DNA of 64,000 nucleotides from Pseudomonadota bacterium. GTDB taxonomy: Bacteria > Desulfobacterota > Binatia > Binatales > Binataceae. Location: contig JAJPHI010000011.1 in assembly GCA_021325355.1 (NCBI GenBank), positions 186,001 to 250,000 of the forward strand. The letters are read 5' to 3'. The notes under the pieces are model-generated. The model was given only the letters and a program-made list of their open reading frames with translations, was not told where the DNA came from and did not search any database. Made by a program: the position numbers and the translations under genes. Position 1 is the stretch's first letter. Every line of letters begins with the position of its first letter. This document shows, piece by piece, positions 5,412 through 62,350 of this stretch.

Positions 5412-6767
5412 GTGAATCCGCTGCTTCTCGTTCTGGCGATTGCGCTGGGCGCCCAGCTTCCCCTGCTGGGTCTCGCGATCCTGCTGGAATTCAGCCAACG
5501 TAAGGCGCGCCCGGTCGAGCAGGCGCCGATCGCCGTTCCTCGCGCGCCGACGCCCGAGTCGGCGCCGACCGCGCCTGACCTCACGGCGGCGCCGCCATCG
5601 CTGCCGTCATCGGGCGACGAACCGCCGACCCTCGCACCGCTCCCGCCCGTGGAGGCTGCGGTACCGTCGATCACCGGCGGCGCGGAGCAGGCGGAGCTTC
5701 CGCCGCCGCCCGCGGCGGAGGCGGCTGCGCCGGAGGCTGAAGCGCCGGTACCGACTGCAGAGCCGTCCTTGCCCGAGGTTTCAGTGCCTCCTGCGGAACC
5801 GGTTGAAGCGGCGCCGAAGCCGCGTGAGCCGGCGCGTCTGGGGCTTGGGCTCCGGCGCACGCGCGAGAATTTTCTGGCGCGGATCCGCGCGGCGATTTCG
5901 GGCAGCGCGAAGCTCGATGAAATCTACGAAAACCTCGAGGAGGCCCTGATCGCCGCCGACGTCGGCGTCGAGACCAGCCTCACGATCGTCGAGGCGGTGC
6001 GCAAGCGGCTCAAGAACGACGCGCGCACCGAGGTCATTCGCGACGCTCTCAAGGATGAAATCGAGCGGATCCTGCTCGCGGCGGACCGGCCGCTGGCCGA
6101 CAGCGGTGAGAATCCGACGGTCGTGCTGATGGCGGGCGTCAACGGTGTCGGCAAGACCACCACTGTGGCGAAGCTCGCGGCGATGCTGAAGGCGGAGGGG
6201 CGGGCTGTGATCGTCGCCGCGGCCGACACCTTCCGCGCCGCGGCGATCGAACAGCTCGAGGTCTGGTGCGCGCGCACCGGCGTCGAGCTGATCAAGCAGA
6301 GCTCCGGCTCAGATCCGGCGGCCGTTGCCTTCGACGCGGTCAAGGCGGCGGTTGCGCGCAAGGCCGACGCCGTCATTATCGATACCGCCGGACGTCTGCA
6401 GACCAAGGTGAACCTGATGGAGGAGCTGAAGAAAATCGCGCGCGTCACCGGGCGCGAGATTCCCGGCGCGCCGCACGAAACCTGGCTGGTTCTCGATGCG
6501 ACGACCGGGCAGAACGCGCTCAGTCAGGCCAAGGTCTTCGGCGAAGCGGTCAAGCTTACGGGCGTGGTCCTGGCGAAACTGGACAGCACGGCCAAGGGCG
6601 GGGTGGTGGTGGCGATCGCCGAGCGTCTTGGGCTGCCGGTGAGGTTCGTCGGCCTCGGCGAAGGGCTCGAGGATCTGCGCCGGTTCGATCCGCATGAATT
6701 TGTTGACGCGCTGTTTGCCGACGCCGAGACGAGCGCGGAGTCGGCCAGCGGGACTTATGCAGCTTGA
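5412..6767 (+). CDS. ftsY: Signal recognition particle receptor FtsY
   Basis: A 451-residue SRP receptor GTPase that docks SRP-ribosome complexes at the membrane. Residues 3-25 form a hydrophobic anchor. Residues 30-135 are an acidic linker rich in Pro, Ala and Glu. The rest is the NG domain, with P-loop GVNGVGKTTT near residue 242, DTFRAAA, DTAGRLQTK, the guanine-specificity segment AKLDSTAKGG and the closing FVGLGEGLEDLRRF. A true N-terminal transmembrane segment is found in some lineages and replaces the amphipathic A domain of E. coli FtsY. The start is GTG 5412. It lies between smc and the division genes zapB-like/zapA. Confidence 0.96.
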   Translation: MNPLLLVLAIALGAQLPLLGLAILLEFSQRKARPVEQAPIAVPRAPTPESAPTAPDLTAAPPSLPSSGDEPPTLAPLPPVEAAVPSITGGAEQAELPPPPAAEAAAPEAEAPVPTAEPSLPEVSVPPAEPVEAAPKPREPARLGLGLRRTRENFLARIRAAISGSAKLDEIYENLEEALIAADVGVETSLTIVEAVRKRLKNDARTEVIRDALKDEIERILLAADRPLADSGENPTVVLMAGVNGVGKTTTVAKLAAMLKAEGRAVIVAAADTFRAAAIEQLEVWCARTGVELIKQSSGSDPAAVAFDAVKAAVARKADAVIIDTAGRLQTKVNLMEELKKIARVTGREIPGAPHETWLVLDATTGQNALSQAKVFGEAVKLTGVVLAKLDSTAKGGVVVAIAERLGLPVRFVGLGEGLEDLRRFDPHEFVDALFADAETSAESASGTYAA

Positions 6768-54474: not shown

Positions 54475-54549
54475 GCCCCGCTCCGGCAGATACTCGTAAG
54501 AACGTTGAGGTTCATTTTTGACAAAAAACTCGGCGCGGTGATATAGAAA

Positions 54550-54637
54550 TCGAAGCTGGGGGTGTGCGCAAGCACTGAGAACTCGCAAGAGAACCCCTTG
54601 AACCTGATCCGGGTAATGCCGGCGTAGGGAAGCGCAA
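54550..54637 (+). promoter_or_regulatory. Thiamine pyrophosphate riboswitch
   Basis: Canonical TPP (THI) aptamer elements appear in order: GGGGGTGTGC, then CACTGAGA, then ACCCCTTGAACCTGATC (54593-54609), GGGTAATGCC and GGCGTAGGGAAG (54621-54632). TPP binding should repress the thiSGE genes just downstream. Exact ends are approximate. Confidence 0.95.
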
Positions 54638-54695
54638 AGCGGAGCGTTCGGGCTCCGCTGAAAGCCGCTTTCTCGGCGCCGGGGATGCGGCTTTC
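54638..54695 (+). promoter_or_regulatory. Tandem hairpins of the TPP riboswitch expression platform
   Basis: A perfect 8-bp stem (54638-54645 with 54652-54659, loop GTTCGG) is followed by a perfect 9-bp stem (54660-54668 with 54687-54695) whose 3' arm ends three bases before the thiS ATG. No T-run follows either, so control is probably at translation, the second stem hiding the ribosome-binding region. Confidence 0.6.
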
Positions 54696-54941: not shown

Positions 54942-55721
54942 ATGATCGAAGACGATGCCTTTCAACTGGCGGGGCGAACTTTCCGCTCGCGCCTGATCGT
55001 CGGAACGGGCAAATATCGCGATTTCGCCGAGACTCGCGCGGCCGTGGAGGCGAGCGGCGCGGAGATTGTCACGGTCGCCGTGCGGCGGGTGAATATCACC
55101 GATGCGACCAGGGAAAACCTGCTCGATTATATCGATCCGAAGCGCTACCAGATCCTGCCGAATACCGCCGGCTGTTTTACCGTCGAAGACGCCGTGCGCA
55201 CCTGCCGCCTGGCCCGCGAGGCGGGCGTCGGCGACATGGTCAAGCTCGAAGTGATCGGCGATCAACAGACACTCTTCCCCGATGTTCCGGCAACGCTCGA
55301 AGCGGCGAAGATTCTCGTCAAAGAGGGCTTCAAGGTCCTGCCGTACATCACCGACGATCCAGTCGCCTGTCTGAAGCTGGCCGAGATGGGTTGCGCGGCC
55401 GTCATGCCGCTGGCGGCGCCGATAGGCTCCGGCATGGGCATCCGCAATCCCTACAATCTGCGCATAATCCTCGAACAGGCCAAGGTGCCGGTAATCGTCG
55501 ATGCTGGTGTCGGCGGTGCTGCCGATGCTGCTGAGGCGATGGAGCTCGGGTGCGACGGACTGCTCATCAATTCGGCGATCGCGGGGGCGCGCGATCCGGT
55601 GGCGATGGCGCGGGCGATGAAGCTGGCGGTCGAGGCTGGACGCCTCGCTTATCGCGCCGGGCGGATCGGCATGAAGCTCTATGCGACCGCGTCGAGTCCG
55701 CTCAACGGTCTGATTCGCTAG
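54942..55721 (+). CDS. thiG: Thiazole synthase ThiG
   Basis: A 259-residue TIM-barrel enzyme making the thiazole phosphate from deoxyxylulose phosphate, dehydroglycine and ThiS thiocarboxylate. [15 protein letters not shown] starts the barrel. VAVRRVNI and the Schiff-base Lys in [11 protein letters not shown] are conserved. [20 protein letters not shown] and [20 protein letters not shown] form the phosphate site. The stop is directly followed by the thiE GTG. Confidence 0.96.
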
Positions 55722-56435
55722 GTGGGATCGGGCGCCGACAGGGTCGCCTTCCGGCTGTATCTCATTACTGATCGCAAGCTGGCGGCGGCGCACGGCGGCT
55801 TGTCGCAGATGGTCGCGGCTGCGCTCGACGCGGCGCACAGCATGGTCGGAGCGGGAGCCGTTGCGCTGCAGGTGCGTGAGAAGGACCTCGCGGGGGGCGA
55901 GCTCTATGCCCTGGCGCGCGAGCTCCGCGCTATCTGCCGGCGTTACGGCGCGCCGATACTGATCAATGAGCGGCTTGATATCGCGCTGGCGGTGGAAGCC
56001 GACGGAGTGCATCTGCCGGCAGATTCGTTTGCGATCGCGGATGCGCGTCGGCTGCTGGGCGCGTCGCGGCTGATCGGTGTATCGACGCACAGTGCCGGCG
56101 AAGTCAGCGCCGCCCGGGAGGGCGGCGCTGACTTCGCCGTCTGCGGCCCGCTGTTCGCGTCGTTGTCCAAGCCCGGTTACGGCCGCGCGGAGGGCGGCGC
56201 CGAGTTTCTCGGCGCCGCCCTCCGCGCAGCCGGCGCGATGCCGCTCTATGCGCTCGGCGGGCTAACCGCGGAGCGCGTGCACGGGCTCGCGCGGGGGTGG
56301 CGCGCCATCGGCGCGCCACCCCCGCGCGGCCTCGCCGTCATTGGCGCCGTCCTTGCCGCAGACCGCCCCGCCGACGCCGTCCGCGATCTCCTCCGCGCTA
56401 TGAACGAGTGGCAGCGGAGCGCGGACCCTCTTTGA
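55722..56435 (+). CDS. thiE: Thiamine-phosphate synthase ThiE
   Basis: A 237-residue TIM-barrel enzyme joining the pyrimidine and thiazole moieties. RLYLITDRKLA, ALQVREKDLAGGEL, LINERLDIALAVEADGVHLP, GVSTHSAGEV, CGPLFASLSKPGYGRA and YALGGLTAERV are family motifs; VIGAVLAADRPADAV closes the barrel. GTG 55722 abuts the thiG stop. The 3' half contains three perfect hairpins (56096-56139, 56185-56227, 56288-56328) that remain in frame and keep the conserved motifs. The third encodes an unusual Pro-rich segment (GWRAIGAPPPRG) between conserved strands. The 3' end overlaps the convergent hydrolase by 38 bases. Confidence 0.93.
   Translation: MGSGADRVAFRLYLITDRKLAAAHGGLSQMVAAALDAAHSMVGAGAVALQVREKDLAGGELYALARELRAICRRYGAPILINERLDIALAVEADGVHLPADSFAIADARRLLGASRLIGVSTHSAGEVSAAREGGADFAVCGPLFASLSKPGYGRAEGGAEFLGAALRAAGAMPLYALGGLTAERVHGLARGWRAIGAPPPRGLAVIGAVLAADRPADAVRDLLRAMNEWQRSADPL
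56096..56139. repeat. Perfect 20-bp inverted repeat in thiE (hairpin 1)
   Basis: Arm 56096-56115 is the exact reverse complement of 56120-56139, with loop GGGA. It covers about residues 125-139 of ThiE. Confidence 0.95.
56185..56227. repeat. Perfect 20-bp inverted repeat in thiE (hairpin 2)
   Basis: Arm 56185-56204 is the exact reverse complement of 56208-56227, with loop TTT. It covers about residues 155-169 of ThiE, just after the KPGYG motif. Confidence 0.95.
56288..56328. repeat. Perfect 19-bp inverted repeat in thiE (hairpin 3)
   Basis: Arm 56288-56306 is the exact reverse complement of 56310-56328, with loop ATC. It covers about residues 189-203 of ThiE, between the GGLTAERV and VIGAVL strands. 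Confidence 0.95.
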
Positions 56436-57066
56436 GGCGCGCCTTCAGTTCCGCCACCGTCAGCAGATGAATCCCGGCGTTCTGCCATTGACGACGGTAA
56501 ATCGCACCGTCAGTCCCGATATCGGCCGTGGCGTCGGTCACCAGATGCAGGCGAAGGTTGGTTTTGGTTTTCAGCAACCCCGCAAGCGCGTCACGGACGC
56601 AGACCTCCGTGTAAACTCCATAGACTACGACGTCCGCATAGTTCTGGAGGAGCCGGGGCAGGAGAAAATTGGCGTTGACGTTGCCGGCGAAGACGTCGAA
56701 CTGCTGCTTTTCAAAAACGATCTCGCCGCGATGGGCGAGGATCGCATCGATCTCGTCGGAGGTCAGTCGACGGTTGGGAACATAAATCGGCTTCAAGGGA
56801 GCAGTTTCATCGATTTTGCGCTGTCCCGCCGTTGCCACCATGCAGTGATCCGGATACTGGCCGCCGTTGCGCTGGAGCTCCGGATCGGTTGCTTGATGGC
56901 AGTCGGTGGAGGCGATGATGCGAAGTTTGAGACGCCGCGCCAACTGTGTCAGTTCGGCAAGGCGCGGAATTATCCGCTCGGCGCCCGGGACCGAAAGGGC
57001 GCCCTCAGGCAGCAGGAAGTCCCGCTGCGTATCGACATCGTAAAAGACCGTCAATTCGGGATCCAT
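56398..57066 (-). CDS. Isochorismatase-family cysteine hydrolase
   Basis: A 222-residue hydrolase with the Asp-Lys-Cys triad: Asp in FYDVDTQRDF, Lys in VFEKQQFDVF and Cys in YTEVCVRDA. ASTDCHQATDPE and GQYPDHCM align with the nicotinamidase/isochorismatase metal and substrate loops. Nicotinamidase, giving NAD salvage, is possible, but the family is broad. It starts at ATG 57066, 41 bases from the CDF transporter stop upstream. Confidence 0.85.
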   Translation of the reverse strand: MDPELTVFYDVDTQRDFLLPEGALSVPGAERIIPRLAELTQLARRLKLRIIASTDCHQATDPELQRNGGQYPDHCMVATAGQRKIDETAPLKPIYVPNRRLTSDEIDAILAHRGEIVFEKQQFDVFAGNVNANFLLPRLLQNYADVVVYGVYTEVCVRDALAGLLKTKTNLRLHLVTDATADIGTDGAIYRRQWQNAGIHLLTVAELKARLKEGPRSAATRS

Positions 57067-60615: not shown

Positions 60616-60651
60616 CGTGCTGCCCGGCCCGCGGCCGGGCCGGGCAGCACG
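60616..60651. terminator. GC-rich 16-bp perfect hairpin
   Basis: Arm 60616-60631 pairs perfectly with 60636-60651, loop CGGC. It lies 8 bases after the stop of the minus-strand TPP-dependent enzyme and before the GNAT gene. No T-run follows, so it may be a factor-assisted terminator or an mRNA stabiliser. Confidence 0.6.
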
Positions 60652-60658
60652 CTGATGG

Positions 60659-62350
60659 CTAGTTGGAGCCGGTGGAACCGAGCAGATTGCCGCCGAGCGT
60701 TGGATGGCCGACGCTCTTGTCACCGACGATACTCACCATCGCCGGCTTGCCGGAATTGAACGCGCGTTCCAATGCCGGCCGGATCTCGTCGGGATTGGTC
60801 ACGTGCTCGCCGTGGCAGCCCATCTCCTCGAAGATCTTGTCGTACCGGATGTCCTGGAGCATGTTAAACGGGTCCGTGCGATCCTTCAGCATCGGCATCG
60901 ATTCGAAGCTCGGACCCCAGGAGCTGTTGTTCCACAGCACGCACACGATCGGCAGTTTGTAGCGCGCGGCGGTTTCCATATCGAAGCCGCCGATACCCAG
61001 TCCGCCGTCGCCCATGATCAGCGCCACCTGCGCACTGGGGCGGGCGAGTTGCACGCCGATACCCATCCCGAAGCCGTGGCCGACCGGCGCGAGCGGACCC
61101 GCGTCGATTACCGCGCCCGGGAAACGGCAGACGAAATTCTGCGACATCCATCCGGAGAGCGTGAAACTGTCGATGACGACGGTGGCGTTTTTATCCAGAA
61201 CGTTGACCAGCTCGCGCGTAAGGCGCGCCGGATGGATGGGCCGATTGTCCTGGAATTTCTTGGCGTTCTCGACCACCTGACGCTCGAAATTCGCGCGCAC
61301 CTCGGCCAGCTCTTTAATCCAGGTCGAGCTGCGATTTTTCGAGAAATCGAGCTTCGCCTCCTTGATCCGGTTGATCATCTGGCGGAGCACCAGCTTGGGA
61401 TCGCCGACGATGGGGATTTCCGCCGGCACCTGCCAGCCGATCCGATCCGGCGTCGGATCGACCTGGATATACTTGGCCTTGTCGTTCCATGTCGGCGGAC
61501 GGCCGAAATGCTCGCCGCTCCAGAAGCGGAAACCGAGGGTCAGGACGACATCGGCGCGGCCGGTGAACGGTTTTTTGAAGGCGCCGCGGATTGCCAGCGG
61601 ATGCTCCTCGGAGACCGATCCCTGGCCGGCGCGCCGCGCATAGACCGGGATATTGGTCAGTTCAACGAATTCCTTGAGCTCGGGCGCCGCCTGTGACCAG
61701 AAAAGCCCGTCACCGCCGGCGATTAACGGCCGTTCGGCGCGATGCAGCAGGTCGACCGCCTTGTCGATCTTGGCCGGATCGCCGGCCGCGCGCACGTCAT
61801 CGAGCGAGAACGGCATCCCGCCTGCGCGTTGTTTGCTGTCGTCACCGCCGGCATAAAGGATATTTTGTGGAATCTCGACCAGCGCCACGCCCTGCGGCGG
61901 CGTCAAGGCCTCGCGGAATGCCAGCCGCATGTCGAATTCGATGGTGCTCCAGTCGGTGACCCGCTTGGTATATTTGGCGAAGCTGCGCACGACCTCGGAG
62001 CCGTACGCTTCCTGGAACGAGCCCTGATGGTCTTCGGTGTTAGGATGCTGTCCGGACACGCACACGACCGCACTGTTGGTCATCGCGGCGAGACAGAGAC
62101 CGGTTACGGCGTTGGTCAGGCCGCATCCCGCTGTCACCATGCACACCCCGGGCTCGCTGGTCATCCGGGCATAGCCGTCGGCGGCATACGCCGTCGCCTG
62201 CTCATGACGCATGTGAATCAGCTTGATCTCATGGCTGCGCAGTTGGGCGAGAATCGGGAACAGATGTCCACCGTTAATCGCAAAACAATAGCGCGTCCGA
62301 TTTTCGCGCATGATCCGAGCGACCAGTTCGCCACCGTCCGCTTTGCCCAT
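60659..62350 (-). CDS. Thiamine-diphosphate-dependent enzyme (acetolactate synthase/oxalyl-CoA decarboxylase-like)
   Basis: A 563-residue ThDP enzyme with all three domains. The PYR domain has MRHEQATAYAADGYARMTSE, with the catalytic Glu. The PP domain has LIMGDGGLGIGGFDMETA and CVLWNNSSWG. It clearly differs from the ilvB product in this window (INGGHLFPILAQL instead of GYPGGAI). Possible activities are 2-hydroxyacyl-CoA lyase, oxalyl-CoA decarboxylase or an acyloin synthase; sequence alone does not decide. ATG 62350 has RBS AAGGAGGATT. Confidence 0.85.
   Translation of the reverse strand: MGKADGGELVARIMRENRTRYCFAINGGHLFPILAQLRSHEIKLIHMRHEQATAYAADGYARMTSEPGVCMVTAGCGLTNAVTGLCLAAMTNSAVVCVSGQHPNTEDHQGSFQEAYGSEVVRSFAKYTKRVTDWSTIEFDMRLAFREALTPPQGVALVEIPQNILYAGGDDSKQRAGGMPFSLDDVRAAGDPAKIDKAVDLLHRAERPLIAGGDGLFWSQAAPELKEFVELTNIPVYARRAGQGSVSEEHPLAIRGAFKKPFTGRADVVLTLGFRFWSGEHFGRPPTWNDKAKYIQVDPTPDRIGWQVPAEIPIVGDPKLVLRQMINRIKEAKLDFSKNRSSTWIKELAEVRANFERQVVENAKKFQDNRPIHPARLTRELVNVLDKNATVVIDSFTLSGWMSQNFVCRFPGAVIDAGPLAPVGHGFGMGIGVQLARPSAQVALIMGDGGLGIGGFDMETAARYKLPIVCVLWNNSSWGPSFESMPMLKDRTDPFNMLQDIRYDKIFEEMGCHGEHVTNPDEIRPALERAFNSGKPAMVSIVGDKSVGHPTLGGNLLGSTGSN

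Follow-up and report, generated by a model that had tools for sequence, protein, structure and literature searches.

Palindromic DNA inside bacterial coding sequence is known from Rickettsia, where palindromic elements form dispersed repeat families. Inverted repeats in proteobacteria were reportedly treated by Lavi and others in 2018, and a review places template switching among bacterial mutation biases. The palindromic amphipathic repeat coding sequences of bacteria are a dispersed repeat as well, as described in the available part of the source (PMC2996958).

Judged by analogy, the closest precedent for the locus described here is provided by the mitochondrial genes of Nematomorpha (hairworms). 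These carry perfect inverted repeats in protein genes, with both arms coding; the authors, in the available part of their paper, leave the function of the palindromes open and consider a conversion process (PMC6649704). Quasipalindrome template switching has been described in E. coli (PMC7202029) and in yeast genes (PMC8604942), and template switching can create and maintain RNA hairpins, which explains how stems come to be perfect and how several bases change in compensation without passing through G-U pairs (PMC8794818), these statements being limited to the accessible portions of the three papers. Within the partly accessible literature, our search returned no bacterial example of a gene whose coding palindromes recur and covary, and no paper linking thiE to coding hairpins, and the texts found for Binatota and thiamine merely mentioned the words.

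The palindromes analyzed in this study lie in thiE of a member of the Binataceae (genome G000). The window, i.e. the whole stretch of DNA that was analyzed, comprises 64,000 nucleotides (contig JAJPHI010000011.1, positions 186,001 to 250,000) and contains the following features:

54548-54647, plus strand: TPP riboswitch (RF00059, 68.3 bits), upstream of the thi genes
54942-55721, plus strand: thiG, directly upstream of thiE
55722-56435, plus strand: thiE (thiamine phosphate synthase), 237 aa, GTG start, Pfam TMP-TENI match at 3.8e-43
56096-56139: hairpin H1, arms 56096-56115 and 56120-56139, 20/20 pairs, loop 4
56180-56232: hairpin H2, arms 56180-56204 and 56208-56232, 24/25 pairs, loop 3
56288-56328: hairpin H3, arms 56288-56306 and 56310-56328, 19/19 pairs, loop 3
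56398-57066, minus strand: convergent open frame, isochorismatase-type hydrolase-like (by eye), overlapping the end of thiE by 38 nt

As in Nematomorpha, both arms of the thiE stems are coding, stems are gained and lost between species, and arm identity is apparently kept by a conversion-like process. The two systems differ in that the thiE stems measure 11-26 bp, lie on a bacterial chromosome and are concentrated, within our sample, in one gene, whereas the hairworm repeats reach 284 bp, are mitochondrial and occur in several genes. The codon register differs too: position 2 stands opposite position 2 in 17 of the 18 thiE stems scoring at least 11 (+1 per match, −2 per mismatch), the exception being a stem of genome G001 at codon column 34, whereas the long hairworm repeats favor position 1 opposite 1, according to the available part of the paper (PMC6649704).

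The thiE stems resemble quasipalindrome mutations, as these are presented in the accessible portions of the sources, in that one arm of a short inverted repeat may have been overwritten by the complement of the other, with clustered coding changes and perfect arms as the outcome. The near-perfect arms and short spacer by which quasipalindromes are recognized were found in all 18 stems. The yeast cases, as far as the accessible text goes, are single-species events with arms of about 7-16 bp (PMC8604942), whereas thiE can carry several stems per gene, with differing arms, across genera. The template-switch hairpins reported for RNA lie in RNA genes (PMC8794818, available in part), in contrast to the thiE stems, which lie inside a protein gene.

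The three perfect hairpins of 19-20 bp that the original prediction had placed in thiE are indeed present, at the very positions given, and H2 has a perfect core of 20 bp (loop 3) that extends outward to 25 pairs with a single A-C mismatch. The window has four perfect stems of at least 12 bp (loop of at most 12), and these hairpins are the longest three among them. A genome scan for strong stems, of the kind the prediction had envisaged, covered 1,135,382 bp of G000 in 62 stretches, among them the window, or 34% of a genome of 3.36 Mb in 35 contigs (the window belongs to contig 14), and yielded 49 stems scoring at least 12 and four scoring at least 19; three of the latter are H1-H3, and the fourth is a doubled GTTTCACGTGAAAC site. 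The claim that such stems exceed chance at this GC content also held, since in 200 synonymous-codon shuffles of the window gene the best stem scored 18 (observed best, 22), and the summed stem score of the gene was reached in none.

The doubled site (locus L174 of G000, 6097-6140) is a palindrome of 44 bp, perfect throughout, in which two GTTTCACGTGAAAC sites are joined; we take these to be parS-like. Two other stems of this genome were noted: a perfect 16/4 stem (bp/loop) at window positions 60616-60651, a few bases beyond the end of the minus-strand frame 60659-62350 and without an obvious T run, and a perfect 18/1 stem (L190, 5995-6031) under long open frames, one of which is radical-SAM-like by eye.

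The locus consists, in order, of purH and alr (minus strand), the TPP riboswitch, a short thiS-like frame (by eye), thiG, thiE and the convergent frame. As had been anticipated, the thiE reading frame survives the palindromes; it is open and retains its TMP-TENI match. The best match of the protein to solved thiamine phosphate synthases was 3.4e-20, and strands and helices alternate in its AlphaFold2 model (mean pLDDT 89.2), with locally lower values at residues 151-160 (59) and at 141-150 and 191-200 (76-77). Going by these matches and the model, the window ThiE is probably functional as an enzyme. The Pro-rich stretch noticed at the third hairpin is real (WRAIGAPPPRG) and lies in a protein loop of family-variable length.

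Relatives were drawn from 41 genomes of the order, all of one family, of which 40 had a match at 1e-40, giving 41 thiE genes (two copies in G023, none in G029). Strong stems, with best scores of 16-22, were present in seven of these genes, belonging to five genera (G000 and G001; G006; G025 and G013; G002; G012), and the seven genes together hold 11 stems scoring at least 16 and 18 scoring at least 11. In the remaining genes, including that of G031, which is truncated by a contig end, the best stem scored at most 10; strong stems are absent from 33 of the 40 complete genes. The hairpins thus recur in five genera, and a view confined to a single copy of the gene was too narrow.

When placed on the protein alignment, several stems share their centers. 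The H1 center is common to G000 and G006 (a 16/8 stem in the latter), the H2 center to G000, G006, G025 and G013, and the H3 center to G000, G006 and G025, with that of G001 one codon column further on. A center at the motif ALGGxTAER (Hx) is found in G002 and G012 and, in weaker form, in G001, G013 and G025; another at VIGAxxGADD (H4) is found in G006 and G013, and G001 has an additional perfect 19/3 stem, at codon column 34. Stem positions differ inside one genus (G000 versus G001), and there is turnover within another, the 19/9 stem of G002 having no stem at its place in the congener G017. Stem presence and absence required four state changes on the thiE tree and four on the neighbor-gene tree, the backbones of both being weakly supported.

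Stems at the thiE stop codon were observed in G006 (21/2; L137, 4102-4145) and G002 (13/0; L140, 11599-11624). The contig of G031 (L147, last 90 bases) ends inside thiE, with the H2 segment skipped and the frame lost, which points either to a genuine deletion or to a stem having been skipped. Gene context was dropped as a cause of the stems: no neighbor arrangement (purH, alr, thiG, convergent frame, CDF, apt) separated carriers from non-carriers in 26 loci, many of them short.

We compared the arms of shared stems pair by pair, outward from the loop, distinguishing pairs changed on both sides (both Watson-Crick) from those changed on one side or unpaired; the comparisons are not independent of each other. 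For H3, counted without G001 (its center being half a step off), both-sided and one-sided changes numbered 11 and 1 (of 19 pairs) between G000 and G006, 8 and 2 between G000 and G025, and 4 and 3 between G006 and G025. For H2 the counts were 4 and 2 (G000-G006), 5 and 3 (G000-G025) and 4 and 3 (G000-G013), with an excess of one-sided changes in G006-G025 (1 and 3), G006-G013 (1 and 3) and G025-G013 (2 and 4). The H1 arms of G000 and G006 gave 1 and 0, H4 gave 0 and 0, and Hx gave 2 and 0 between G002 and G012 and at most 1 and 1 in its other nine comparisons.

Changes in length and frame were also seen. In G000, the 5′ arm of H2 contains an additional codon that the other 39 genes extending to this column all lack (G031 ends short); even so, 24 of 25 pairs form, in a new register. 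At H3, the string GCGGGGGTGGC is common to G000 and G001, in which it is read in different frames. H3 of G025 includes 12 codons that are absent from its congener G013 and read as the complement of the family motif RPAGVA; because other stemless genes carry residues there, these codons may be an old loop and not a new insertion.

Among the 321 pairs of the 18 stems (loops of 1-9), 309 are Watson-Crick; the other 12, read as plus-strand RNA, comprise three G-U, seven A-C and two of other kinds, the G-U and A-C counts being small (P = 0.17). The departure of the arms from the 33 hairpin-free genes ranged from −0.14 to +0.12 relative to baseline, with no consistent side, so that we claim no direction of copying. 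By eye, the template appears to be the motif with the better conservation, and at five of six sites the palindrome joins a segment of higher conservation to a neighbor that varies more (baseline identities), as would be the case if overwriting were survivable only on the tolerant side. Less used codons stand where the partner arm demands them, namely ATA in G001 (6.8% of Ile codons) and GTA in G002 and G012 (9.7% and 12.3% of Val codons), usage being taken from mechanically called frames.

With 200 synonymous shuffles per gene, the best score was attained a single time for G013 and in no case for the other six carrier genes, and the summed score a single time for G012 and in no case for the remaining six. 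A score of at least 16 appeared in four of 8,200 shuffles of the 41 genes, one of them in G013, whose own best is 16. The best stem scored 12 in 80 matched loci of other taxa, including 29 with a GC3 of at least 0.7, and 14 in 20 loci of the same class (20 of 22 other-family genomes, without G043 and G047, and with G037 represented by the weaker of two matches); the controls include some second, TenI-like matches and overlap in at least two genomes. GC content was rejected as the cause, as thiE or thiE-like regions elsewhere with similar or higher GC lack such stems.

In sampled DNA of three carriers (1.14 Mb of G000, 0.42 Mb of G013 and 0.38 Mb of G001), stems scoring at least 12 were paired within 400 bp only in thiE of G000 and G013; in G001 the top-scoring stem of the sample also lies in thiE, which there lacks such a pair. 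Single stems elsewhere scored 15 to 18 in the G000 sample and 15 to 16 in that of G001, and two single stems outside thiE in G013 (18 and 17) exceed its best thiE stem (16). The latter two are perfect, 18/3 (L203, 1401-1439) and 17/1 (L214, 4375-4409), and both lie in long open frames. In an 8.5 kb stretch of G012, two stems scoring 12 are separated by 84 bp within a purH match (L141, 4957-4991 and 5075-5110). The strong G013 stems and this purH pair contradict the notion of thiE as the exclusive site; strong stems outside thiE mean that a background process exists, and thiE is therefore distinguished by density, not by exclusivity.

Even in hairpin-free genes the stem columns are partly complementary (0.35-0.48, compared with 0.28-0.34 for partners slid by whole codons), and this partial complementarity may supply seeds. 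In each of three genomes, shuffling the codons of thiE produced longer stems than all 60 slices taken from ordinary genes, a test that is partly circular, because the shuffles retain the codons that the stems chose.

Our preferred reading, to which we give a probability of roughly 0.6, is that quasipalindrome template switching or local arm conversion both creates these coding palindromes and maintains their near-perfect pairing, with selection on ThiE as the filter. A short imperfect inverted repeat in thiE would act as the seed on which the nascent strand folds back, and copying during replication or repair would replace a segment, in a single step, by the reverse complement of its neighbor, in some events with an in-frame change of length. 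In a long stem, each new mismatch would offer a fresh substrate for the same correction, and the stem would therefore persist while both arms drift together; selection for working ThiE would filter the products. The stems, their shared centers, the two-arm changes, the turnover and the concentration in thiE within the sample are direct observations. The copying step itself, its direction and the lack of a role for the stems are inferences from these. Templated copying accounts, with few assumptions, for the pairing, the joint change, the in-register codon and the near all-or-none presence.

Several points count against copying: a general mutational mechanism leaves the concentration in thiE of five genera unaccounted for, three of the H2 comparisons have an excess of one-sided changes, the departure of the arms favors neither side, the G-U and A-C counts are small, and two-arm changes are also expected from selection on structure. 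Such selection could act on mRNA or on a DNA cruciform in the last gene of a TPP-controlled operon (double-strand RNase sites, decay, translation), with template switching perhaps supplying the variants, and the concentration in five genera, the shared centers, the covarying arms and a strong predicted RNA fold of 56080-56340 (−211 kcal/mol, z −11.6) would agree with it. We nevertheless regard it as unlikely, since 33 of 40 complete genes do without strong stems, neighbor arrangement does not track the stems in the 26 loci compared, their positions differ within a genus while loops range from 1 to 9, G-U pairs are fewer than A-C mismatches, and no terminator-like site (GC-rich stem plus T run) was found on the plus strand between 54400 and 57200. 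Selection on structure fits the turnover, the absence from 33 of 40 genes and the lack of wobble less well than copying does, although the two are not mutually exclusive. Of the two explanations offered originally, template switching thus gained from the joint change of arms, the lack of preference for G-U, the turnover and the codon confined to G000, whereas mRNA termination or structure lost ground for want of terminator-like sites and of wobble.

Chance would require GC-rich codon usage combined with complementary peptide motifs (EVxAA/GADF, ALGG/TAER, VIGA/GADD). The complementarity of stem columns in hairpin-free genes and the advantage of shuffled thiE over gene slices, obtained with codons of hairpin genes, lend it something, but the four shuffles in 8,200 that reach 16, set against 11 such stems in seven genes, refute chance as the sole cause; the 29 high-GC3 regions, which top out at 12, also speak against it, and we consider it very unlikely. 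The original prediction had warned of an assembly or foldback artifact, and the contig break in G031 indicates that such sites may disturb sequencing or assembly. The open frame, the Pfam match and the finding that genomes of several genera, each assembled on its own, have stems of differing sequence at the same sites dispel this concern, making an artifact extremely unlikely. In-frame insertion of mobile palindromic elements, as in Rickettsia, would suit the position of H3 in a length-variable loop; against it, no common sequence was found among the thiE stems, whereas the Rickettsia elements are one sequence family at many loci. H1-H3 are not copies of one sequence, and the best string common to two of them (16 of 18 nt identical) is ordinary, as repeats of at least 14 of 15 nt occur in 10 of 41 thiE genes, G000 included; for the same reason we dropped a copying of H1 into H2 as evidence. 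Compared with most thiE genes, H1 adds no residue and H2 adds one, and by eye the other strong stems in 1.14 Mb of G000 look unrelated. Mobile insertion therefore receives almost no credence here.

Beyond templated copying as such, we tentatively consider that thiE of this order, a chromosomal housekeeping gene, may be a standing palindrome trap, in which several coding palindromes arise again and again, stay near-perfect through conversion between their arms and persist across genera, at a density unmatched by any other gene sampled. The driver could be foldback copying promoted by the locus (TPP-controlled transcription, the convergent neighbor, a stalled fork) or an acquired mRNA role.

The locus is a bacterial parallel to the coding palindromes of hairworms and lies in a gene whose function can be measured and for which many relatives have been sequenced. 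It would allow a test of whether long stems in coding DNA owe their persistence to mutation alone or to selection. It also carries a warning: covariation at shared positions, the usual evidence for functional RNA, may arise from templated mutation in a protein gene. In addition, template switching could plausibly give rise to changes of several residues at once in a conserved enzyme.

At least two ThiE/TenI-like matches were present in 53 of the 57 genomes compared; in G000, the second, distant match (G000:C6:148619-149089, L002) has no stem scoring at least 12. Within window positions 54548-54695, an inverted repeat (GAAAGCCGC/GCGGCTTTC) follows the TPP riboswitch just 5′ of the first thi start codon, and similar stems (AAAGCCGCTTCCC/GGGAAGCGGCTTT) lie upstream of thiG in G013, G009 and G024. 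These inverted repeats are perhaps the expression platform.
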